A DNA stretch of 64,000 nt, from NCBI GenBank assembly GCA_963854835.1, contig OY978526.1, positions 28,509,073-28,573,072 of the forward strand, written 5' to 3'. Every line of letters starts with the position of its first letter. Positions within the stretch are counted from its first letter, which is position 1. The position numbers were made by a program, and so were the translations under genes. Positions 15,259 to 63,600 of the stretch are shown here, one piece after another. Source of the DNA: Megamerina dolium. Taxonomy: Eukaryota; Arthropoda; Insecta; Diptera; Megamerinidae. The notes below the pieces were generated by a model. That model saw nothing but the letters and a program-made list of their open reading frames with translations, was not told the DNA's origin and did no database searches.

Positions 15259-15653
15259 TCTTGGTCATTTACTTACTTACTTACTTACTTATGTGGCCAT
15301 AACAACTGAATATCGATTTAGGCCGAAAATAACATGCTTCGCCAGCCATCTCTGTTCTTCGCTTGCTGGCGCCAGTTAGAAATTCCAAGCGCCGTCAGGT
15401 TCTCTAGTACTTGGTCTTTCCACCGGAGGTTAGGTCTTCCTCTTCTGCGTCGTCCTCCAGCGGGTTCCGAATATGACACCTTCTTAGCTGGAGCGTGTTC
15501 TTCCATTCGCTCGACATAACCTATCCAGCGCAGCCGATGGATTTTGATGCGCTTTACTATGTCAATATCATCATACAGCTCGTACAGCTCATGGTTGTAC
15601 CTTATTTGGTACTCGCCACCAACGCAAATAGGTCCAAAGATCTTGGTCATTTA
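15259..15653 (-). mobile_element. 5'-truncated LINE with 13-bp target duplication and (TAAG)n tail
   Basis: Flanked by TCTTGGTCATTTA at 15259-15271 and 15641-15653. On the minus strand the insert encodes the C-terminal end of a non-LTR ORF2, in order: KIFGPICVGGEYQIRYNHE, LYELYDDIDIVKRIKI, LRWIGYVERMEEHAPAKKV, a GRRRRGRP basic stretch, and LENLTALGISNWRQQAKNR. A short 3' region ends in (TAAG)n (15272-15291 as CTTA on plus). The open frame of 110 residues is intact but far too short to act. Related fragments lie at 22280-23047, 59440-59620, 61246-61490 and 62170-62490, so this is one LINE family with many truncated copies. Confidence 0.85.
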
Positions 15654-15912
15654 AATTATGTTATTCGAACATCAAAAACTTATTACTTTTTCATAATGTC
15701 AAATCTGATACAACGTTGATGGATCGTTTAAAGTCACTGCAGTCTCTATAGAAAGCCTCTTATCTGCCGTACTCACTGTTATAGTTTAATTGAGTTATTC
15801 CACTTCCCTTTATATATTTTGAAAATTAGAGCGGTCGTTTTGGGTGAGTAATACTAACTAATCTAAGTAATACTTTACTGGAAATTGTCGTTTTGCGAGC
15901 ACGGAATTAAAC

Positions 15913-17222
15913 TAAAGGGTTATCCATTTCGCGGTTTCAAAAGTATAGGGCTAGAATTCGACATCTGTCAAACTGAGTTGTTAAAACAATTTCTTTCTTT
16001 TTCAGTTCAAAATCTGACATTTGCGAAAATGGATCGCTTAACTATCGCACAGCTCATTAAAATTGTAAAAACCGACTACAAAAATGGTGATTCTGCCACA
16101 GCCACATATCGTGCTTTAAGAGGAGATTATGGTTTACATAATCGTCCAACTACGCAAGCAATTGGGAAAATTGTGAAGAAATATGAAGAGACTGGATCGG
16201 TTACAGATATTGTAAGGCCTGTGCATCATCGTTTCGCTCGTACCACCGAAAATATCGCTGCTGTAAGTGAAAGTGTTGCCGAAGACCCGAATGTGTCGAT
16301 TCCTCGTCGTTCTCAGGAATTAGGACTGTCTTACGACACATTATGGTGTATTTTGCATTTGGATCTACACCTACATCCATATAAAATCCAGCTCACACAA
16401 CAACTGAAGCCAGCTGACCATTCACAACGTCGTAGATACGTCGAATGGGTGCTTGAACAACAGGTGGTGGACGGCGATTTTTCGAACAAAATTTTCTTCA
16501 GCGACGAAGCACATTTCTCACTCGGTGGGTATGTTAACAAACAAAATTGTCGTATTTGGGGTTCTGAGAATCCTCAAGTAATTGAAGAGAGGCCACTACA
16601 TCCACAAAAAGTCACTGCTTGGTGCGCTCTTTGGTCCGGAGGTGTCATTGGACCTTACTTCTTCGAAAACGACGATGGAACGACTGTCACCGTCAATTCG
16701 GAGCGTTATGGTCATATGATAACCGACTTTTTTTTGCCTGCTATTGAAGAATACGACTTAGAGAATATGTGGTTTCAACAAGACGGTGCCACATGCCACA
16801 CAACTCGAGCGAATATGGCTTTATTGCAAGAGAAATTTTCTGGCCGCGTAATTTCTCATCGTGGCGATATCAAGTGGCCACCAAGATCATGCGATTTGAC
16901 ACCGCTTGACTTTTTTTTTGTGGGGCTACGCGAAAGACCGTGTTTATGCAGATAAACCTTTAACTCTTGAGCACCTAAAAACCAACATTCGTCACGTTAT
17001 GGCTGAGATACCGCCCAATATGTGTCAAAAAGTGGTCGAAAATTACCTCAAAAGAATCGATGCTTGCAACAATTCACGTGGTGGTCATTTATATGATGTA
17101 GTATTTCACACATAATGTCAACGTTTAAACTTTATAATAAAAAAGAAATATCATGATAAAAAATATTTTCTATGTGTTTTATTTACATTTACTTTTGAAA
17201 CCGCAAAATGGATAACCCTTTA
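15913..17222 (+). mobile_element. rosa-type (DD41D) Tc1/mariner transposon, structurally complete
   Basis: The element spans 15915-17220 (1306 bp) between TA dinucleotides at 15913-15914 and 17221-17222. Its ~32-bp terminal inverted repeats begin AAGGGTTATCCATTT and differ at one position (C versus T). It contains a single transposase gene. Size, TA duplication and inverted repeats are all as expected for an intact member of the superfamily. The catalytic spacing places it with the DD41D 'rosa' group first found in Ceratitis rosa. The near-identity of the two repeats suggests recent insertion. Confidence 0.93.
16029..17115 (+). pseudogene. rosa-type DD41D transposase, one frameshift
   Basis: Cut-and-paste DNA transposase. 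The start chosen is the ATG at 16029 (MDRLTIAQLIKIV), which matches the family start; the upstream open frame is read-through from the left terminal repeat. N-terminal helix-turn-helix region covers roughly residues 1-110. Catalytic residues visible: FFSDEAHF (first Asp), WFQQDGATCH (second Asp) and LTPLDFF (third Asp), with 41 residues between the second and third. At 16911-16919 a run of nine T interrupts the frame. With eight, DFFLWGYAKDRVYADKP would continue into the frame ending RGGHLYDVVFHT at the TAA at 17113-17115, giving about 361 residues. The single homopolymer slip may be real or an assembly error. All three catalytic Asp codons are intact. Confidence 0.9.
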
Positions 17223-22279: not shown

Positions 22280-23047
22280 AACTCCATCTGCCGGTAGCAA
22301 TGGACTTCCTGTTGAATTGCTTAAGGCCAGCGGCGATGAGCTGATAGAGTGCATGTATCAACTCATCTGCAAAATATGGCTAGCAGAATGTATGATTGGA
22401 ATTTCAGTGTCCTTTGTCCTGAACTGAAGAAAGGTGACCCGACGATCTGCACCAACTACTGGGGAATCAGTCCTCTTACCATCTCATATAAGATTCTGTC
22501 GAGCGTACTGTGTGAAAGACTAAAGCCAACAAATTGATAGGACCTTATCAGTGCGTCTTTAGACCTGGCAAGTCCACCATCGACCAGATCTTCACACTGC
22601 GCCAAATCCTGGAAAAAACTCACGAAAAGCAAATCGACACCCATCATCTCTTCGTCAAGACGCTCATCACACCCGTGCTGCTCTATGGCGCAGAAGCGTG
22701 GGTTGTGTCGCAAACTGATGCAGGCACGCTTGGGGAGTTCAAGAAAAAAATTCTTTTGCGTCGGTGACGAATTGTACGAGCGCTACGCTGACATTGACAT
22801 AGTCCACCGCATCACTATTTAACGTCTGCGATGGCTAGGCCATGTTGTGCGTATAGATGAAGAAGCTCCGGCGAAAAAGGTGTTTGAAACGGAATCCGCT
22901 GGACGACGACGAAGAGAAAGGCCATACCTTCGATAAAAAGGCCAGGTCGTGGAAAACCTGTCTGCACTTGGTGTAACTGATTGGAGAAGGCGCACACAAA
23001 GTAGAAATGCCTGGAGAGAGCTGCTGCGGTCGACCGTAACTCGATAA
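22280..23047 (+). pseudogene. Non-LTR retrotransposon ORF2 relic with large internal deletion
   Basis: Reads in order: AGSNGLPVELLKASGDELIE, MYQLICKIW, LKKGDPTICTNYWGISPLT, YKILSSVLCERLKP, GPYQCVFRPGKSTIDQIFTL and QIDTHHLFV. From that last block, which normally leads into the first catalytic Asp, it jumps to KTLITPVLLYGAEAWVV, deleting the palm and the F/YADD motif. The C-terminal part follows: ERYADIDIVHRITI, LRWLGHVVRIDEEAPAKKV, GRRRRERP and LSALGVTDWRRRTQSRN, ending at the TAA at 23045-23047. One stop after LKP (22535) and one or more frameshifts. It is the same or a sister family to the truncated LINE at 15272-15640. Confidence 0.82.
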
Positions 23048-36890: not shown

Positions 36891-38021
36891 TTAATTATTT
36901 GTTTGGTTGCAGTATTCTACTATTTTCGTGCTCATAATAACATCACGCGTGATTTCAAGCATGTCTTTGTGGGATATGTTCCACATTTCGAGTTCATCAA
37001 TAAATTGGCGACCCAGCGTGGACATCCTCCTTCGTGCCAATACAGGACACTGGCACACTATGTTCGCCGCTGTCGCTGCCACTTCCATGCATAATCTGCA
37101 AATGTCAGCATCCTCTTCTTCAACAAGACCTATCTTGTTGAGGTGGTACCTGAAATTGCCATGTTCAGTTATTAATGCAATCAACCAGCTTAGAGTTAAC
37201 CGTTTTAGACTGAGAGCCCTCCCCGATTCACAAGTGGATAAGTTCTTCCATCTCGTGAGATGGAGTTTCTTTATCCACTCTTCGACCTTTGCCTTCACCG
37301 TCCCTTTGCTAAGAGCAACTACTGGTTCCGGTCCATACAACTCAGCTTCAGATCCATGTCTAGCCAAGGCGTCTGCAGCTTCATTTTTTCCTATACCAAT
37401 GTGTCCCTTCACCCACATGAGAGTAAGCGCATTACTATGAGTACACCCGTTAAGTTCCAGAACACATTCGAGCGCCAACTTAAAAGATACCTTAGGTTGT
37501 TGCAGCCACCAGAGCACCGCCTGGTTACCTTGCACCTTTCCACCCAGTAGATGGTCTAGCGCATGCATTAAACCAAGCATTTCTGCTGGATAGACCGATA
37601 CATATCTTCCCAGATTCAGAGTGCATGCCAGTCCCAACTCTTTAGAGAAGATTCCATCACCCGCCCTGCCATCCATTAAGGTGCCATCAGTGAAAATACT
37701 GATGTCATTTTCCTCACATACATCATGTGTGAGGCCGTCTTCAATGACTGTTCTGTGTGATTTTCCAGTCATCGTTAGACTACCCATTCCTTCCATTGGC
37801 ATTTGTGCCTCCTTTACACTGCTATATAACAGTGACAGGATGCTTCTGCGCCCTATGTCCGTGCCGAATCCGTACCAATTATTGGCTGTCTTCAGACGTA
37901 ATGCTGTTAATGCCGCCGATTTCATAATATGCAAATACAACTGCAGCAGCCCCAGAAATACTTCCAATGCTTCTACTAGGGTCATCCGGATAGCGTAAAA
38001 TGCATGACTGATCTTCATCAA
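36891..38021 (-). pseudogene. Non-LTR retrotransposon RNase H and C-terminal zinc-knuckle region, 5' truncated
   Basis: An open frame of 376 codons (ATG at 38018; one codon earlier is TTG). It represents the part of ORF2 after the reverse transcriptase, as in LOA/I/R1-type LINEs that carry an RNase H domain. Visible motifs: IFTDGTLMDGRAG (Asp 112), YPAEMLGLMHALDHLLGG (Glu 147), WVKGHIGIGKNEAADALARHG (His 207, Asn 213, Asp 217), and a C-terminal Cys cluster with C308, C311, C323 and C325 ending in CPVLARRR. The third catalytic acid is missing. The usual LWVDSQAAL stretch is reduced to LWWLQQPKV, consistent with an in-frame loss of about eight codons. The reverse transcriptase itself is absent because the copy is truncated near residue 1. 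Despite this, the frame has no stop. Confidence 0.8.
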
Positions 38022-49959: not shown

Positions 49960-51185
49960 CGTGCGGTTTGCTAAGAGATGGCGTAACTTGATTATTATTC
50001 CATCGTTTTTTCAATATTCCGAACATGCGTTGGAAAGCTACTGTCATTGTGCGTCTTTCACAGTAAGTGTCATTCATTTGAAGTGTAAACAACACACATT
50101 TTTTTTCACTCAAATATGTCGAACTTTGTGCCTGAAAAAGTGTTTTTGTGGGGAGTTCTTCTTCATTACTTTAATATGAAGAAAACTCGTGCCGAAAGTC
50201 ATCGTATTTTGGTGAAAGTTTATGGTGAATATGCTCTAGCTGAGCGAACGTGCCAAATGTAGTTTGCATGATTTAAAAGTGTTAATTTTGGCTTGAAAGA
50301 CGAAGAACGTCCTGGGCAGCCAAAAGAGTGAAGATGAAGAACTGGAAGCATTCCTCGATGAAGATTGTTGCCAAACACAAGGAGAACTTTGCAGAATCTT
50401 TAGGAGTCTTTCAAGCAGCCATTTCAAAACGTTTAAAAGCAGCCGGATACATTCAAAAGCAAGGAAATTGGGTGCCACATGAACTGAAGCCGAGAGACGT
50501 TGAAAGGCGATTTTGCATGTCCGATATGCTGCTGGAATGCCAAAAAAAGAAATCATATTTGCATCGAATTGTTACTGGTGATAAAAAATGGATCCATTAT
50601 GACAACCCCCAGCGCAAAAAATCATATGTGAAACCCGGTCCACCAGCCATATCAACAGCAAAGCCGAATATCCATGGCTCGAAGGTAATGCTCTGTATTT
50701 GGTGTGATCAGAAGGGTGTGCTATATTATGAGCTGCTAAAATCGAGTCAAACCATCAATGGAGAACGCTACCGAACACAATTAATCCATGTGAAGAGAGC
50801 AATAGCCGAAAAACGCCCGACCAGACATGACTCCATAATTTTCCATCATGACAACGCTCGGCCTCATGTTGCAACAGCGGTCAAAAACTATTTGGAAAAC
50901 AGCGGCTGGGAAGTTTTGGCTCACCCGCCTCATAGCCCAGACCTTGCCCTCATCTTGCAGAACGCCCTCACTGGAATAAGGTTCACACCAGAACAGTGTA
51001 TTAAAAATTGGCTTGATTCATTCTTTGCCACCAAGCCGGCGCAGTTCTTTTGGGATGGAATCCACAAATTGCCAGAAAGATGGGAAAAAGTCATAGCTTC
51101 AGATGGGTAATACTTTTAATAATACTATTTCACATGTGTTTCTTAAATAAACGTACAAATATCAATCAATCAATAGAAGATCCTA
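49960..51185 (+). pseudogene. Mos1-like (mauritiana-type) mariner, third catalytic Asp deleted
   Basis: Leader and start ATG at 50116-50118 (MSNFVPEKVFLWGVLLHYF, then NMKKTRAESHRILVKVYGE). An in-frame TAG replaces the Trp codon after TCQM (50260-50262), and a TGA follows three codons later. After a frameshift near 50330 a long open stretch carries SKRLKAAGYIQKQGNWVPHE, LHRIVTGDKKWIHYDNPQR (first Asp present, the usual Glu after it is Lys), IWCDQKGVLYYELLK, FHHDNARPHVATAV (second Asp) and HPPHSPDLA. Here the usual LAPSDYHLF is missing: LA runs directly into LILQNALTG, so about seven residues and the third Asp are lost. It then ends HKLPERWEKVIASDG at the TAA at 51108-51110. Terminal repeats were not located. 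Confidence 0.82.
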
Positions 51186-57200: not shown

Positions 57201-59439
57201 TTGGTACAAAAAAATAGCCAAAATCGACAAAACAGCTTGAAGCTATGAATATCTTTAAATATTGTGCTTTTTGTCAATTTTTACGAAACAATTTCGAATT
57301 ATATTAAGCTAAAATATTATTACGTTTTAATTCTGTAAACATTTAATTCCTATATGAATCAATCATGCGGGATTTATTGACAACAATATTTACGCCAATA
57401 TTGCTTGTAATCCAAATTTTGAATAATTCCCGTTTTTGACATACACGCTTGCTTTAGGCGTCAGTTAAACGGCGCATAAACATAAGCTTAGAAACCAAAT
57501 TGACACAGGTTTTGAATATATTCGAACTTTATGTTATATATTTTGGATGATCGATTATATTGCTTTCACGTATGTTTACAATTAGTTATTACTGAACAAA
57601 CATTTTCGTGATAATATTCTTAAAAATTCCCACATCTTTGCAATTCAGAACTAGAAATTCTTTTCTCCATCTTACAAATTCTCTATACTGCTCTTAATAT
57701 TTTCCCCTTCATAATTATGATTGAGCATTGAATTATGATTTAATAAATATAAGAATTGAATTTAAGAAAAAATTCAATTAAACACAATTATGAAAGAGTC
57801 AAATGACTCACCCACAATAATTCTTTATTGTTGACATACAAATGATGCTGCATAATTAAAATACCACAGCAGCAGCTAATTATGCCAATATTTTATTATA
57901 TAAAAACCATACTACCACCGTATATCAGCATCATTAACAAAAAAAATTTATAGCTTGCCAACAAAATCAAAAAAAAGAAAGCAAAAATTTGGAACATTGA
58001 AGCCATAAATTTGTCGCAAAGCCAATAAAGTTAGTTAAAAAAAAAGCAATTTCTTTTACTTTGTTCTTATATATTTTCATTTCAATTCGATTCTTCTATA
58101 TTTTTTCATTTTTTTCCTTTATCCTATTGCAGCAATTTAACTGCAATTCATTTAAACAGCTGCCAAAAATGTAAAAGAAACAAGGAATTAGTGGGTAAGG
58201 AATGGCAACTTTCACAAATTCAGTTCAAGTTCGCGTTTCAATCAAAAAACCAGAAAATAAATAAAAATTAAAAAACGATATAATTTTTTTATAGAAATGA
58301 AGAAGAAGAAGAAGAAAAAATATACACATATAGATAAATGAATATTGTCATAATATTTCAAACAATGTGGCAGCTTTGCATGCCATATAGTCAGCTATAA
58401 TATATTTTATGCATACACACACACACGATCATAGTAACCATAGCAAGTATAGAATGGGAAACCATCATAATGTATAGTTTCGACTAAACGAATACGACAT
58501 GTGGTTGAGAAAACAAAAATGCAATTACTACTACAACAACAATACACATTCGAATGGATATAAAATTTAATTTCACTTTTTTCTCATTTCGTTGTCACGA
58601 ATTTGTGTGTTGTTGCCAATGCAACAACAGTATTCAGAAAAACAGCTGCAAGTGTTGCCAACTAGGCAACAACAACAAGACAATATGTACTCGATGTTGC
58701 TTTTGTTATAAAATTTTTGCGATATTTCTACTAGTCAGTATGTACACAGCTATATATTCGACTAAAATGATGAAAATATGATTTTCGTAAAGAAATTACG
58801 AAATTAAATGTGGAAACCCTACGTTGAAACTAATATGTATTTAGTAAGATATTGCCAACAGATATATGTGTAGTTATTAAAACATTTTGTACTGCAATTG
58901 ATTGCAGCATTATACTTATGAGCATAGTGGGATATACATATATAGTTTTCCTTATTGATTTGTAAGTCCGCATGTAGCTCAATATAATGTAAAGCTTTCC
59001 ACATTTCATCTCAATAAAATCTTCTATTTGCATTAATTTCTCTTCTTTTGTTGCATAATATTGTATTTTCTTGTTTCATTTGCTTTCAAAAAAATAACAT
59101 TTACTATCATATTTCATAGTTCTTACTCTTGCCATTCTATCGCATTTATCGTTTTACTTGAATGTACAGATATTATTTTTCTTACTGTCGGACAATTTAT
59201 GCAAAAAGCAGATGGTAAATTAAATGGAAAATTTGTATGCAGCAAATGTGTAATTTTGTTTGTATGATATATCTGTTGCAGAAATAAAATGTTGAAATGT
59301 GAATTAAAAATTTTCATAATTGGAAAATGCTGCTGCTTCAGAATGTAGTCGAGGTTTTAAGTTTTATAATGAGACACAGAACGAGTAAGGGAGCTCATGA
59401 GTTTATAAACAGACAGATACAGGCCGAAGCGCTTCGTCT
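57201..59439. other. gene-free A/T-rich stretch
   Basis: No gene recognised. The Cys-rich 75-codon frame at 58554-58781 is built from TTGCCAAC/CAACAA phrases and is probably chance. Confidence 0.45.
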
Positions 59440-59620
59440 TTCCACAGAAGGGTAGATCTGCCTCCTTTGCGTCGTCGACCAACGGATTCCGAATATTACA
59501 CCTTTTTAGCTGGAGCGTACTCTTCCATGAGGACATCATGTGGAACTCAGATTCTGATGATAGCAATGATTGCGATATTGATATTCCAAGCGCCGAACCA
59601 TGACCCTTGAAAAAAGCTCA
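59440..59620 (-). mobile_element. LINE ORF2 C-terminal fragment
   Basis: The minus strand reads as a decayed copy of the EEHAPAKKV / GRRRRGRP region of the family at 15272-15640. TCCATGAGG, TTTTTAGCTGGAGCGTACTC and TGCGTCGTCGACCAACGGAT on the plus strand correspond to that landmark order. Truncated at both sides. A CGATATTGATATTCCAAGCG phrase follows from another part of the element. Confidence 0.6.
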
Positions 59621-60529: not shown

Positions 60530-60555
60530 CGCAGAAATATAAACATAAGATCATC

Positions 60556-60564
60556 TCTAAATAG
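60556..60564 (+). promoter_or_regulatory. Degenerate TATA box of peptide gene A
   Basis: TCTAAATAG stands at the place where genes B and C have TATAAATAG. It is 107 bp before the ATG. The surrounding context (TAGTGGGCGTTCAAA versus TAGTGAACATTCAAA) is otherwise shared. The change of the second base may weaken TBP binding. Confidence 0.5.
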
Positions 60565-60662
60565 TGGGCGTTCAAAAGTAATATAGCATAAAGTAAAAAT
60601 TATCACAGAAGAAAGCAAATATTATTCATTAAAATTTTAAGTAAAACAACAACAATACAAAA

Positions 60663-60773
60663 ATGAAACAATTCAATATATATTTTATTGCACTTGTAAT
60701 TGCAATGATTGGTACTGGTGCAATGTCGGCTCTTCCGCTTGATCCGCCTTTTTACGATTTGTTGAGTTACTGA
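60663..60773 (+). CDS. Short secreted peptide, paralog A
   Basis: 36-residue precursor of unknown function. Residues 1-23 (MKQFNIYFIALVIAMIGTGA then MSA) form a typical signal peptide: a basic residue near the start, a hydrophobic core IALVIAMIG and a small residue before the cut. Predicted mature peptide is LPLDPPFYDLLSY (13 residues, net acidic, no Cys, no basic cleavage sites). The ATG is the first after the promoter-like region and is preceded by AAAA. A poly(A) signal AATAAA lies at 60850-60855. It is the first of three tandem paralogs. The frame, signal peptide and LP junction are shared with B and C. The function is unknown: a reproductive-gland, immune or signalling peptide are all possible. 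No intron is needed. Confidence 0.72.
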   Translation: MKQFNIYFIALVIAMIGTGAMSALPLDPPFYDLLSY

Positions 60774-60849
60774 AATAGATTCAATACCTAGAAGTCAATG
60801 GGAAATAAAAACAAGAGTAACCGACTTATAGAATTTTTTTAAAATACGC

Positions 60850-60855
60850 AATAAA
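60850..60855 (+). terminator. Poly(A) signal of peptide gene A
   Basis: AATAAA 77 bp after the stop codon, in an A/T-rich context with a second AATAAA-like site ten bases on. Confidence 0.5.
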
Positions 60856-61019
60856 TAAGCAATAATAAAATTTGATAATTTGTTGAAAATTTTCGAAAAA
60901 AGGAACAAGACTTTCTTGATGCAATTCTTTTGTACTAGGGGATCTAGAATGATTGTCATTTATAAATTATTACTATAAATTCTTATTATAAATGCCTACA
61001 ATATAACAAAACTGAACAA

Positions 61020-61166
61020 TGTCCTAAGGATCAGAGTAGTCACATTCTATGAATCGTGAAATCCGTTGAATGCTAATCTGAGGTCGGACTTCCGCCATCA
61101 CTCTTACCGGGTTTTTTCACGTTCTTGAAAATTTATAGAATATGATTACTCTGGTCCGTCGGTCAA
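61020..61166. mobile_element. ~147-bp MITE within duplicated unit A
   Basis: Left CAGAGTAGTCACATTCTAT and right ATAGAATATGATTACTCTG are inverted copies (17 of 19 bases). They are extended by GTCC-type ends that are clearer in unit C (TGTCCGACGG...CCGTCGGACA at 63226-63359). Unit B has the left half from 62090 and is then interrupted by LINE sequence. It was therefore present before the duplication. Superfamily unknown. Confidence 0.6.
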
Positions 61167-61200
61167 TATATTTTTAGTTTGTAATTCCTTGTATTAAGCA

Positions 61201-61245
61201 CTGGTATACTCGGTCGTAAACTCGGTCGGGAATCAAGTATACCAG
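61201..61245. repeat. Inverted repeat next to LINE tail
   Basis: CTGGTATACT (61201-61210) and AGTATACCAG (61236-61245) form a perfect 10-bp inverted repeat around a 25-base spacer containing two CTCGGTCG-like repeats. It lies directly before the (TTAC)n tail of a LINE fragment. Confidence 0.6.
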
Positions 61246-61490
61246 TTACTTACTTACTTATGTGGCCATAACAACCGAATATCGATTTAGACCGAATACA
61301 ACATGCTTCCCCAGCCATCTCTGTTCTTCTCCACAAAGATTTTGTGTAGGAAATTTCTCTCGAAAACTCCGAGCATTGTACAGGTGAATTCTGATTATTT
61401 CCATCTCAGATGAGACGATGTTAAATATATCGCACTTGTTATTGTCGCAGTTCATTAGAATTATGTAGACGTGTATACAAATTAATTAAA
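61246..61490 (-). mobile_element. LINE 3' fragment, internally deleted, upstream of gene B
   Basis: TTACTTACTTACTTATGTGG (61246 on) is the same 3' tail as at 15272-15300. After about 80 bp, near CTCTGTTCTTC, the sequence jumps to an upstream ORF2 segment (CCACAAAGATTTTGTGTAGG to GTTAAATATATCGCACTTGT). That second segment recurs at 62400-62520 ahead of gene C. The fragment is antisense to the peptide genes. Confidence 0.7.
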
Positions 61491-61556
61491 TATTATTCTA
61501 ATTAAAATTACGTGAATAGAAACAACAAATATGTAGAAATGAATATGATCCACTAC

Positions 61557-61565
61557 TATAAATAG
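61557..61565 (+). promoter_or_regulatory. TATA box of peptide gene B
   Basis: TATAAATAG, 112 bp before the ATG. The 40 bases around it (ATGATCCACTACTATAAATA then GTGAACATTCAAACGAAATA) are almost identical before gene C. A plausible start site is the CATCAT near 61587, about 30 bp downstream. Confidence 0.7.
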
Positions 61566-61668
61566 TGAACATTCAAACGAAATACATCATAGAGTAAATG
61601 CTATCACATTCGAAAGCAATAATTATTAATTAAAAGTCAAGGTTGCATATTGTAAAAAAAAAACAAAA

Positions 61669-61785
61669 ATGAAATACATCAATAAATTTTGTATTGCACT
61701 TGCAATTGCAATAATTGGTACTGATGCAGTGTCGGCTCTTCCATTTGAACCGGATTTGTACGAATGGCTGAATTACCAATACTGA
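61669..61785 (+). CDS. Short secreted peptide, paralog B
   Basis: 38-residue precursor. Signal peptide MKYINKFCIALAIAIIGTDA followed by VSA, giving a classic V-S-A cleavage site after residue 23. Mature peptide LPFEPDLYEWLNYQY (15 residues; two Glu and one Asp, one Trp, three Tyr, no Cys or basic residue). It shares the LP start and PDLYEWL core with paralog C, and LP plus the acid/Tyr pattern with A. It has the best promoter of the three (TATAAATAG) and a poly(A) signal at 61896-61901. No described family recognised. Conserved signal peptide with a more variable mature part is a pattern seen in fast-evolving secreted peptides, but three sequences are too few to show selection. Confidence 0.75.
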   Translation: MKYINKFCIALAIAIIGTDAVSALPFEPDLYEWLNYQY

Positions 61786-61895
61786 AGTAGATTCAACATC
61801 TAGAAAACAATCGCGTATAAAACCAAGAATAACAGATTTATGTAATTTTTTTTTTAAATACGCAATACTTACTGTTAAACTCTTAGGATATGTTC

Positions 61896-61901
61896 AATAA
61901 A
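61896..61901 (+). terminator. Poly(A) signal of peptide gene B
   Basis: AATAAA in GGATATGTTCAATAAATA, 110 bp after the stop codon. The same phrase occurs after gene C. Confidence 0.6.
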
Positions 61902-62089
61902 TAAAAAAATATATTTGCAATTTTAAAGTATTTGATAATTTGTTGACTATTTTCGAAAAGAGGAATGAAGATTTCTTGATGGAACTCTTTGATTCTAGGA
62001 AAACTAGCATTATCGTCATTTATGATCAACATTACTATTATCGGCCATCTGTTAAATATGCAACACTACAATATAACAAAACTGTATGA

Positions 62090-62175
62090 TGTCCGAGGGA
62101 TCAGAGTAGTCACATGAAATCCGCTGAATCCGAATTCGAGGTCGGACTTCCTCCATCATCCTCACCACTTTTTTT
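62090..62175. mobile_element. Left part of the unit MITE, cut by LINE sequence
   Basis: TGTCCGAGGGATCAGAGTAG to CCTCACCACTTTTTTTC matches units A and C. The right half of the MITE is absent and LINE sequence begins at CTCCAGTACTTG. Confidence 0.55.
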
Positions 62176-62520
62176 CTCCAGTACTTGATCTTTGCACCGG
62201 AGGTTAGGTCTGCTTCTTCTGCGATGTCCATCAGTGGGTTCTGAAAATAACACCTTCTCAGCCGAGGCGTGCTCTTCCATTCACTCGACATGACCTAGCC
62301 AGCGCAGCTGCTGCATTTTAATGCGCTTTACTATGTCGGTGTCGGCATACAACTCATATAGCTCATGGTTGTACCTTATTCGATACTCGCCACCATTGAA
62401 AATGGATCCCAAGATCTTGTGTAGGACATTTCTTTCGAAAACTTTGAGCATTGCACAAGTCAATTTCGATAATTTCCGCCTCAGATGAGGCGATGTTAAA
62501 TATATCGCATATGTTATTGT
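62176..62520 (-). mobile_element. LINE ORF2 C-terminal fragment upstream of gene C
   Basis: Minus strand: FERNVLHKILGSIFNGGEYR, then IRYNHELYELYADTDIVKRI, KMQQLRWLGHVE, a stop in place of the next Arg, MEEHASAEKV, then RRRSRPNLR and KDQVLE. Same family as 15272-15640. It ends on the left at the MITE and on the right in the segment shared with 61330-61460. So the same insertion, with different internal deletions, precedes both B and C. Confidence 0.78.
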
Positions 62521-62522
62521 CG

Positions 62523-62628
62523 CAGTTCATTAGAATTATAAATATTGTACTAATTGTACTAATGCAGTTCATTAGAATTATAAATATTGTACTAATTGTA
62601 CTAATTGTACTAATTAAAATTGCATGCA
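62523..62628. repeat. Local duplication with TAATTGTAC units
   Basis: GCAGTTCATTAGAATTATAA followed by ATATTGTACTAATTGTACTA occurs twice in a row, ending in additional TAATTGTAC units. Unit B has one GCAGTTCATTAGAATTATG at the matching place, so this expansion is specific to unit C. Confidence 0.8.
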
Positions 62629-62668
62629 TAAAAACAACAAATACTCACAAATGAAAATGATCCACTAC

Positions 62669-62677
62669 TATAAATAG
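62669..62677 (+). promoter_or_regulatory. TATA box of peptide gene C
   Basis: TATAAATAG 115 bp before the ATG, in the same context as gene B. Confidence 0.65.
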
Positions 62678-62783
62678 TGAACGTTCAAACGAAATACATC
62701 ATAGGGGAAATGCTATAACATTTGAACGCAATAATTATTAATTAAAATTCAACGTAATATATTGTAAAAAACAAAAAACAAAA

Positions 62784-62900
62784 ATGAAATATTTCATTAA
62801 AGTTTGAATTTCACTTGTAATTGCTATGATTTGTACTAGTGCAGTGTCGGCTCTTCCGGATGAACCGGATTTGTACGAATGGCTGCATGCCCACCAATGA
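62784..62900 (+). pseudogene. Short secreted peptide, paralog C (stop at codon 8)
   Basis: Same 38-codon architecture as B, but codon 8 is TGA (62805-62807) where B has TGT and A has TTT. The stop lies inside the signal peptide. The frame beyond it is still open and would encode a signal core SLVIAMICTSAVSA and a mature part LPDEPDLYEWLHAHQ, ending at the TGA at 62898-62900. A TATA box and an AATAAA (63006-63011) are retained. Options are a recent single-base pseudogene, an allelic null, or a sequencing error. The preserved remainder suggests the loss is recent. Confidence 0.7.
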
Positions 62901-63005
62901 AGTAGATTCAACACCTAGAGAAAACAATCGAAAATAAAAACTAAAGTAACAGAATTTTTTTTTCAAATACGCAATTCTTACTATTAAACTCTTAAGGATA
63001 TGTCC

Positions 63006-63011
63006 AATAAA
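63006..63011 (+). terminator. Poly(A) signal of peptide paralog C
   Basis: AATAAA in GATATGTCCAATAAATA, 106 bp after the stop codon, matching gene B. Confidence 0.55.
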
Positions 63012-63225
63012 TATTTATGTCTATAAACAAAATCATTTGAAATTAGATATTTGGAATTTTCAAGTATTTGATAATTTGTTAACAATTTTCGAAAAAAGAA
63101 ACGAACATTTCTTGATGGAACTCTTTGGTACTAGGGAAACTTGCATGATCGCCATTTATAATCAACATTAATGTTATCGGCCATCTGTTAAATGCGCAAC
63201 CCTACAATATAACAAAACTGTATGA

Positions 63226-63359
63226 TGTCCGACGGTTCAGAGTAGTCACATGAAATCCGCTGAATCCGAATCTGAGGTCGGACTTCCGTCATTATCCTCA
63301 CCACTTTTTTTTCGGTTTTCCAACATTTATAGAATATGATTAGTTTTGACCGTCGGACA
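63226..63359. mobile_element. Unit MITE, copy C (both ends present)
   Basis: TGTCCGACGG at the left and CCGTCGGACA at the right are exact inverted repeats. Inside, CAGAGTAGTCACAT pairs less well with ATAGAATATGATTAG. 134 bp, non-coding. Confidence 0.65.
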
Positions 63360-63364
63360 ATATA

Positions 63365-63600
63365 TTTAGGTTAGGTTAGGTTAGGTTATATGGCTGCCCT
63401 CTCTCTGAGGGGCCAGAATTGCCCATTGTGGTACCACTGAGCTTCTCTTCCAATACTGTTGTGCGTGTTAAATTTGGACAGCATTAGTATGGACCTACTT
63501 ATATTAGCCGGTTCTGAACGGCAGAACCCTTGTGACATCACTTTAATTTAGTTTTGTCACAGAGCTCTTTTAAGAAGAATTTTTGGCAAATGACTTCCAT
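63365..63600 (-). mobile_element. SINE-related relic with (TAACC)n tail
   Basis: On the minus strand the SINE body landmarks (AGCTCTGTGACAAA, GATGTCACAAGGGTTCTGCC, TAACACGCACAACAGTATTG, GAAGAGAAGCTCAG) lead into GGTACCACAATGGGCAATTC and GGCCCCTCAGAGAGAGGGCA. It ends in (TAACC)n, seen on plus as GGTTAGGTTAGGTTAGGTTA at 63368-63387. The 3' end differs from the 31.2-kb copy, so it is another subfamily or a chimera. The head is truncated where maT-like sequence begins near 63600. Confidence 0.7.

Follow-up and report, generated by a model that had tools for sequence, protein, structure and literature searches.

A tandem cluster of putative very small secreted-peptide genes at a single locus of Megamerina dolium

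The window considered here, a stretch of 64,000 bp from the fly Megamerina dolium (C2:28509073-28573072 of the 8-contig, 500.5-Mb assembly), carries three head-to-tail units, A, B, and C, within positions 60530 to 63370, each with an aligned TATA region, a short open reading frame (ORF), and an AATAAA signal. DNA similarity led to three further units, D, E, and F, which follow on the same strand in the 20 kb directly downstream of the window. The cluster comprises in total six same-strand copies across 17.7 kb, five of them intact (A, B, D, E, F) and one, C, broken. These copies very probably constitute a tandem family of tiny protein-coding genes, six in number and restricted to one locus, with predicted secreted products; this confidence covers the gene family and the secretion, not the tissue. 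The reading that suits these sequences best is that of linear effector peptides which are secreted and belong to a family restricted to one lineage.

Extent of the cluster and its place in the genome

The first-pass annotation of this DNA had described three head-to-tail units, each with a 36- to 38-codon ORF, and had let the cluster end at position 63360. Three units are present and the frames of A and B are open, but that of C is interrupted by a TGA at codon 8, and the cluster continues beyond this end with D, E, and F (Table 1). No seventh copy was found by nucleotide and translated searches across 244 kb, composed of 60 kb before the window, the window, and 120 kb after it. The promoter, ORF, and polyadenylation signal had been proposed to repeat in register. 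This holds for the alignment of A to C, with the difference that the box of A reads TCTAAATAGT instead of the TATAAATAGT of B and C. The distance between TATA box and ATG was 107 nt in A, 112 nt in B, 115 nt in C, 114 nt in D, 105 nt in F, and 145 nt in E.

Table 1. Features of the cluster and of the spacers between its units (window scale unless a separate coordinate is given)
Feature	Position	Strand	Start codon	Remarks
TATAAA, unit A	60538 (region 60538..60565)	+		core promoter region
TCTAAATAGT, unit A	60556	+		box in register with TATAAATAGT of the other units
ORF A	60663..60773	+	60663	36 codons, intact; signal-like leader, then LPLDPPFYDLLSY
AATAAA x2, unit A	60850..60869	+		at 60850 and 60864
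Retroelement remnant, A-B spacer	61246..61464	-		61246-61329 94% to a 15.3-kb copy; 61336-61464 88% to 62411-62539
TATAAATAGT, unit B	61557..61566	+		5' of ATG
ORF B	61669..61785	+	61669	38 codons, intact; leader, then LPFEPDLYEWLNYQY
AATAAA x2, unit B	61896..61905	+		at 61896 and 61900
Retroelement remnant, B-C spacer	62174..62540	-		broken reverse-transcriptase-like 3' coding piece; 71% over 83 aa to 15321-15650
TATAAATAGT, unit C	62669..62678	+		5' of ATG
Unit C, broken frame	62784..62900	+	62784	38 codons; TGA at 62805-62807
AATAAA, unit C	63006..63011	+
ORF D	L014:262-408	same as A to C	64262	48 codons, intact
ORF E	L014:2481-2591	same as A to C	66481	36 codons, intact
ORF F	L015:4203-4331	same as A to C	78203	42 codons, intact

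On both strands of the 244 kb, TATAAATAGT occurred seven times, and five of these sites were those of B, C, D, E, and F. The pattern TMTAAATAGT-N5-TTCAAAMG gave seven matches in 500.5 Mb, which were the six units and one place on contig C3, and the reversed pattern used as a control matched once. The lone outside match on C3 was rejected as an additional member because no comparable ORF was present there.

Evaluation of the whole-genome searches needs to consider that the numbers of matches are lower bounds. Protein B yielded at least five matches (B, C, A, D, and F, with E missed), the DNA of D from promoter to signal part at least five (D, B, C, E, and A, with F missed), and protein D at least four (D, E, F, and B); the stop reported in the match of protein D to E was E's own stop codon, which the alignment overran. 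No family member outside the cluster locus was found in the protein, DNA, and promoter-pattern searches of the 500.5 Mb. Because these searches list the family at one locus, it is not a dispersed repeat. The third PDLYEWL-like place of the genome, on contig C4, was also discarded: it reads PDFYEWF, and the 30 residues between the flanking stops include no leader of this kind.

Coding evidence, peptide features, and divergence of the copies

A total of 1,055 ORFs of 30 to 60 amino acids (aa) starting with ATG were present in the 244 kb, and 47 of them were signal-like according to a crude rule. Five of these 47 also possessed a TATAAA 60 to 200 nt upstream, an AATAAA not more than 300 nt downstream, and the start context C/A-A-A-C/A, and these five were exactly A, B, D, E, and F. 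The rules of this filter were set after A and B had been seen and before D, E, and F were known; the fly-type start context and the signal rule derive from general consensus forms. In the window alone, 2 of 268 such ORFs (A and B) combined TATAAA, AATAAA, and start context, and multiplication of the single rates predicts about one; the evidence from the window alone is weaker than that from the 244 kb.

Within the frames, the sister pairs A-F, B-C, and D-E differ by gaps of 12, 6, 6, and 3 nt, all four being multiples of three, and the 3-nt gap falls at the stop codon of E. Flank gaps in the sister pairs were multiples of three in 5 of 17 cases, versus which the frames differ with a one-sided probability of about 0.02 (calculated by hand). 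The pair A-B contains a single in-frame gap of 6 nt. A neutral, substitution-only simulation of 34 codons, with a tree derived from the 5' flank and six settings per rate, left at least five of the six copies open in 0.6 to 1.6% of the runs at the full 5'-flank rate (1% in another run). The in-frame gaps and the simulation favor, with modest statistics, a coding constraint on these frames. Taken as a test of constraint in a lineage-restricted family, the open frames in five of the six copies gave a positive outcome, at the same modest statistical level.

The five intact products share one layout, composed of an early Lys, an uncharged hydrophobic run, a cut site with a small residue, and then LP, LDYP, or YP; all five agree with the crude signal rule. 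Two features predicted from the window were recovered as described, the PDLYEWL core in the translations of both B and C and the absence of Cys from the mature peptides, which extends across the family. Others were found to be properties of A to C rather than of the whole family. A Leu-Pro follows the presumed cut in A, B, and C, but D, E, and F start with LDYP or YP; acidic peptides of 13 to 15 residues characterize A to C, but the mature parts of D, E, and F are 27, 17, and 19 residues long with net charges of +3, -1, and +2, respectively. In the five intact copies, mature peptides span 13 to 27 residues, net charges -3 to +3, and three to five aromatic residues. An X-Pro directly after the presumed cut is present in A, B, F, and the broken C, four of the six copies. 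Only one dibasic pair, inside F, occurred among all six translations, and the products do not qualify as neuropeptides or peptide hormones by this measure; a C-terminal Gly, as used for amidation, was not seen by eye in the six translations.

Conservation is unevenly distributed along the units. The mean pairwise difference of the 15 pairs was 0.180 in the signal part, 0.196 between TATA and ATG, 0.349 upstream, 0.370 in the 3' flank, and 0.420 in the mature part. Promoter, leader, and signal are conserved, and divergence in the mature part is comparable to that of the 3' flank. When those sites were regarded as informative at which A equals F, D equals E, and the two pairs differ, B agreed with D/E at 22 of 24 sites up to codon 8 and with A/F at all 14 sites from codon 21, and C agreed with D/E at 23 of 27 sites and then with A/F at 13 of 13. 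B and C look like mosaics, or else the 3' half of D/E is a new acquisition; in both cases, the join would be located inside the signal-coding part. Alternatively, a faster-changing 3' half in the D/E lineage could mimic the mosaic pattern. Because of this and because E and F both retain YPPV, no direction of exchange is claimed.

In the mature parts of the sister pairs, the proportion of nonsynonymous differences (pN) exceeded that of synonymous ones (pS), with 0.49 versus 0.20 in A-F, 0.22 versus 0.12 in B-C, and 0.24 versus 0.12 in D-E; pN equaled pS in A-B, and pN was lower than pS in B-F (0.31 versus 0.45). Positive selection on the mature part is not claimed from these values, which rest on only about eight synonymous sites per pair and come without a significance test.

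Proposed function, rival explanations, and known peptide systems

Each gene possesses its own TATA-type promoter, altered in A, one uninterrupted frame of 36 to 48 codons, except in C, and a downstream polyadenylation signal. The TATA-to-ATG distances of 105 to 145 nt suggest a 5' leader of about 75 to 115 nt. The product would enter the secretory pathway, signal peptidase would cut after the small residue, and the X-Pro start of A, B, and F may then be removed by an enzyme of the dipeptidyl-peptidase type. A linear, Cys-free peptide of up to 27 residues, bearing aromatic residues and proline, would be released and act outside the cell. The copies may have been duplicated in tandem, exchanged sequence with one another, and changed quickly in their mature part; such a history would suit effector peptides engaged in an ongoing contest, be it in seminal fluid, in gut or saliva, or in defense.

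Several observations weigh against coding and need to be considered together with the alternative that the ORFs exist by chance within a tandemly duplicated non-coding segment. A comparison of A to C gives no indication of purifying selection: the identity of the ORFs does not exceed that of the flanks, and amino acid identity is 20 of 36 for A-B (neutral expectation, 22.5) and 24 of 38 for B-C (expectation, 23.7). The frame of C is broken, and the mature part, diverging like the 3' flank, could be drifting. Aligning the more distant copies B and D requires gaps of 6 and 4 nt in the frames, the second of which is not a multiple of three and falls in a region where the alignment is unreliable, and D and E lack a Pro at mature position 2 if they are cut before LDYP. 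At 0.6 of the full rate, the simulation left at least five of the six copies open in 4.6 to 10.6% of the runs. Given open frames in A and B, it left D, E, and F all open in 11 to 20% (full rate) or 20 to 35% (0.6 rate) of the runs, and for this reason the open frames of D, E, and F by themselves are not a strong test. Moreover, all three window units keep the same two minus-strand ORFs open over at least 20 codons. One of them, at least 31 codons long and located at 60867-60959, 61927-62019, and 63063-63155, shows fewer amino acid than silent differences per site; that it is open in A to C is probably due to chance. Because these minus-strand ORFs stay open in the same units, ORF retention in A to C alone was dropped as a coding argument, and the coding case rests on six copies and combined features. 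These weigh against the chance ORF: D, E, and F are open as well and have the same signal layout, the feature combination picks exactly the five intact copies among the 1,055 ORFs, and in-frame gaps, simulation, and the single locus oppose it. A repeat with a chance ORF, named in the first-pass annotation as the outcome that would speak against a gene family, is now improbable. Less probable still is that the unit is a mobile element, or part of one, with look-alike non-coding copies. Retroelement remnants in the A-B and B-C spacers and a long-stem hairpin after unit A are in agreement with such an origin, but promoter, leader, and signal part were found at one locus only in 500.5 Mb, unlike a dispersed element, and this explanation is largely refuted.

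With the favored reading as a family of secreted-peptide genes, a secretion of the reproductive tract or of another gland would be the most likely role, with a probability that falls somewhat short of even; a microbe-induced hemolymph peptide would come next, and other or signaling roles take the rest. Peptides of the reproductive glands, in seminal fluid or from the female accessory gland, would change fast via sexual conflict. The fast divergence of the mature part, the small products with signal-like leaders, and the lack of an excess of kB sites suit this functional variant, but any secretory tissue would fit. A medfly testis and accessory-gland library, in which 1,121 of 3,344 assembled sequences had no database match, would have missed products of 36 to 38 aa, since its extraction was limited to coding sequences of 40 aa or more (PMC3469604). 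The other functional variant, immune effectors similar to the microbe-induced hemolymph peptides Bomanin, Daisho, Ibin, and Mibin of Drosophila with an X-Pro that is trimmed before release, is rather unlikely, although the copies are similar to those peptides in the size class, the signal and X-Pro start (four of six copies), the tandem arrangement, and the apparent taxon restriction. The combination of conserved leader and variable mature part is compatible with defense peptides as well, for example the frog antimicrobial peptides (PMC7106915). On the other side, the peptides have no Cys and are not consistently cationic, A, B, D, E, and F have no Pfam match, and the motifs KNHEEWXG of Ibin and RPXTLPP of Mibin are absent by eye. 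With general consensus forms of the kB site, the 1-kb stretches preceding the six TATA boxes contained no strict site and a single loose one (D), versus about 2.3 loose sites expected by chance. The lack of NF-kB-like sites is mild evidence against a Toll- or Imd-induced role; an immune reading by way of regulatory sites was rejected and is kept as a rival only.

The claim that no recognized family is represented was borne out by Pfam, NCBIfam, PDB, and a large protein collection, none of which gave a credible match. Pfam contained no family for A, B, D, E, and F at E values up to 5, and a 25-aa fragment of C matched only DUF1462 (0.14, below the cut-off). There was no match for A and B in NCBIfam, none for B in PDB, and none in the window in Rfam at the gathering threshold. 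Six distinct PDB sequences matched D, the best with an E value of 0.03, and were coronavirus spike chains, taken as chance matches. Among about 5.8 billion predicted proteins, no candidate was found for B (plus three leader codons), D, or F; fly genes of this length may be scarce in this collection, so that the absence is weak evidence, and no tephritid annotation was included in the search. Exact-pattern matches in a viral (1) and a prokaryotic (9) collection were set aside as frames that had, by eye, no comparable leader. The string PDLYEWL occurred in none of the open-licence papers searched, and searches of such papers for short secreted peptides of tephritids or other flies brought up no entry naming the family.

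Ibin precursors of 41 to 42 aa have a signal peptide, IbinA and IbinB were initially taken as non-coding, 102 of 144 Mibins carry an X-Pro after the signal cut, and such fly peptides are potential substrates of dipeptidyl-peptidase-IV-like enzymes (PMC12882233). The copies described here are similar in the signal peptide, the short mature peptide, the X-Pro start of A, B, C, and F (not of D and E), and the ease of mis-annotation. They differ in that KNHEEWXG and RPXTLPPN/QRPXXPN/DF are not seen by eye in the six translations and in the absence of a strict kB-like site. The short Bomanins (cluster 55C) and Daisho (an adjacent pair) are very short secreted peptides reported only from Drosophila (PMC12894722, PMC6989431). 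The present peptides, also very short and predicted to be secreted, share clustering and apparent taxon restriction with them, but unlike in the short Bomanins with their conserved 16-residue domain, the mature part differs by 0.42 per site (mean of 15 pairs). Pfam holds a model for the Bomanin/Daisho group, and A, B, D, E, and F did not match any curated Pfam family. Conopeptides are encoded by multigene families with a conserved signal, a propeptide, and a hypervariable mature part. Frog skin antimicrobial peptide precursors, likewise multigene, combine a conserved signal, an acidic propiece, and a hypervariable mature part (PMC7106915). Unlike in both of these, the leader here runs almost directly into the peptide of 13 to 27 residues; the likeness is one of pattern, not of kinship. 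The ceratotoxins of medfly, a tephritid, are also clustered short secreted peptides, set apart by their description as longer, cationic, and helical.

The cluster would belong with the lineage-restricted short secreted peptide families of flies and not form a new category. As a tentative proposal, it may represent an undescribed family in which a fixed cassette of promoter, leader, and signal is combined with rapidly changing, nearly propeptide-free mini-peptides, the variants of which would arise partly via exchange inside the signal sequence, as a minimal counterpart of the conserved-leader systems of cone snails and frogs. Peptide genes of 36 to 48 codons are at or below common annotation cut-offs, for instance the 40 aa of the medfly study, and because of this size such families may be under-counted. 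The locus offers five concrete genes with exact coordinates and a mosaic pair for studying the origin, diversification, and decay of tiny secreted peptides.

Neighboring elements

The remnants in the A-B and B-C spacers stem from one retroelement family, which is also present near 15.3, 22.8, and 59.4 kb. The coding piece in the B-C spacer is presumably a reverse transcriptase; Pfam gave no match to it. Reverse-transcriptase-like 3' coding pieces of this family are located at 15321-15650, 22754-23035, 59415-59528, and 62176-62424, and the D-E spacer contains a longer piece that is open over 389 codons. A long-stem hairpin at 61028-61157 follows the polyadenylation signals of unit A (-51.9 kcal/mol for 61028-61168, z of -5.9 versus shuffled sequences) and could be a small inverted-repeat element or a source of hairpin RNA. 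A weaker hairpin is present after unit C (63228-63368, z of -3.6), and its truncated counterpart after unit B was no better than shuffled sequences (z of +1.2).

Further frames in the window include a mariner-type transposase frame at 50286-51107 (Pfam Transposase_1, E value of 6e-26), a 362-codon frame at 15867-16952 with a DUF4817 helix-turn-helix domain, likely a transposase, and a 376-codon minus-strand frame at 36894-38021 with an RNase H domain match, probably a retroelement piece. On the plus strand of contig C2, some 28 kb ahead of the window start (-28120 to -27179 on the window scale), lies a 314-codon open frame that by eye has no resemblance to a mobile element and is a candidate for an ordinary neighboring gene.

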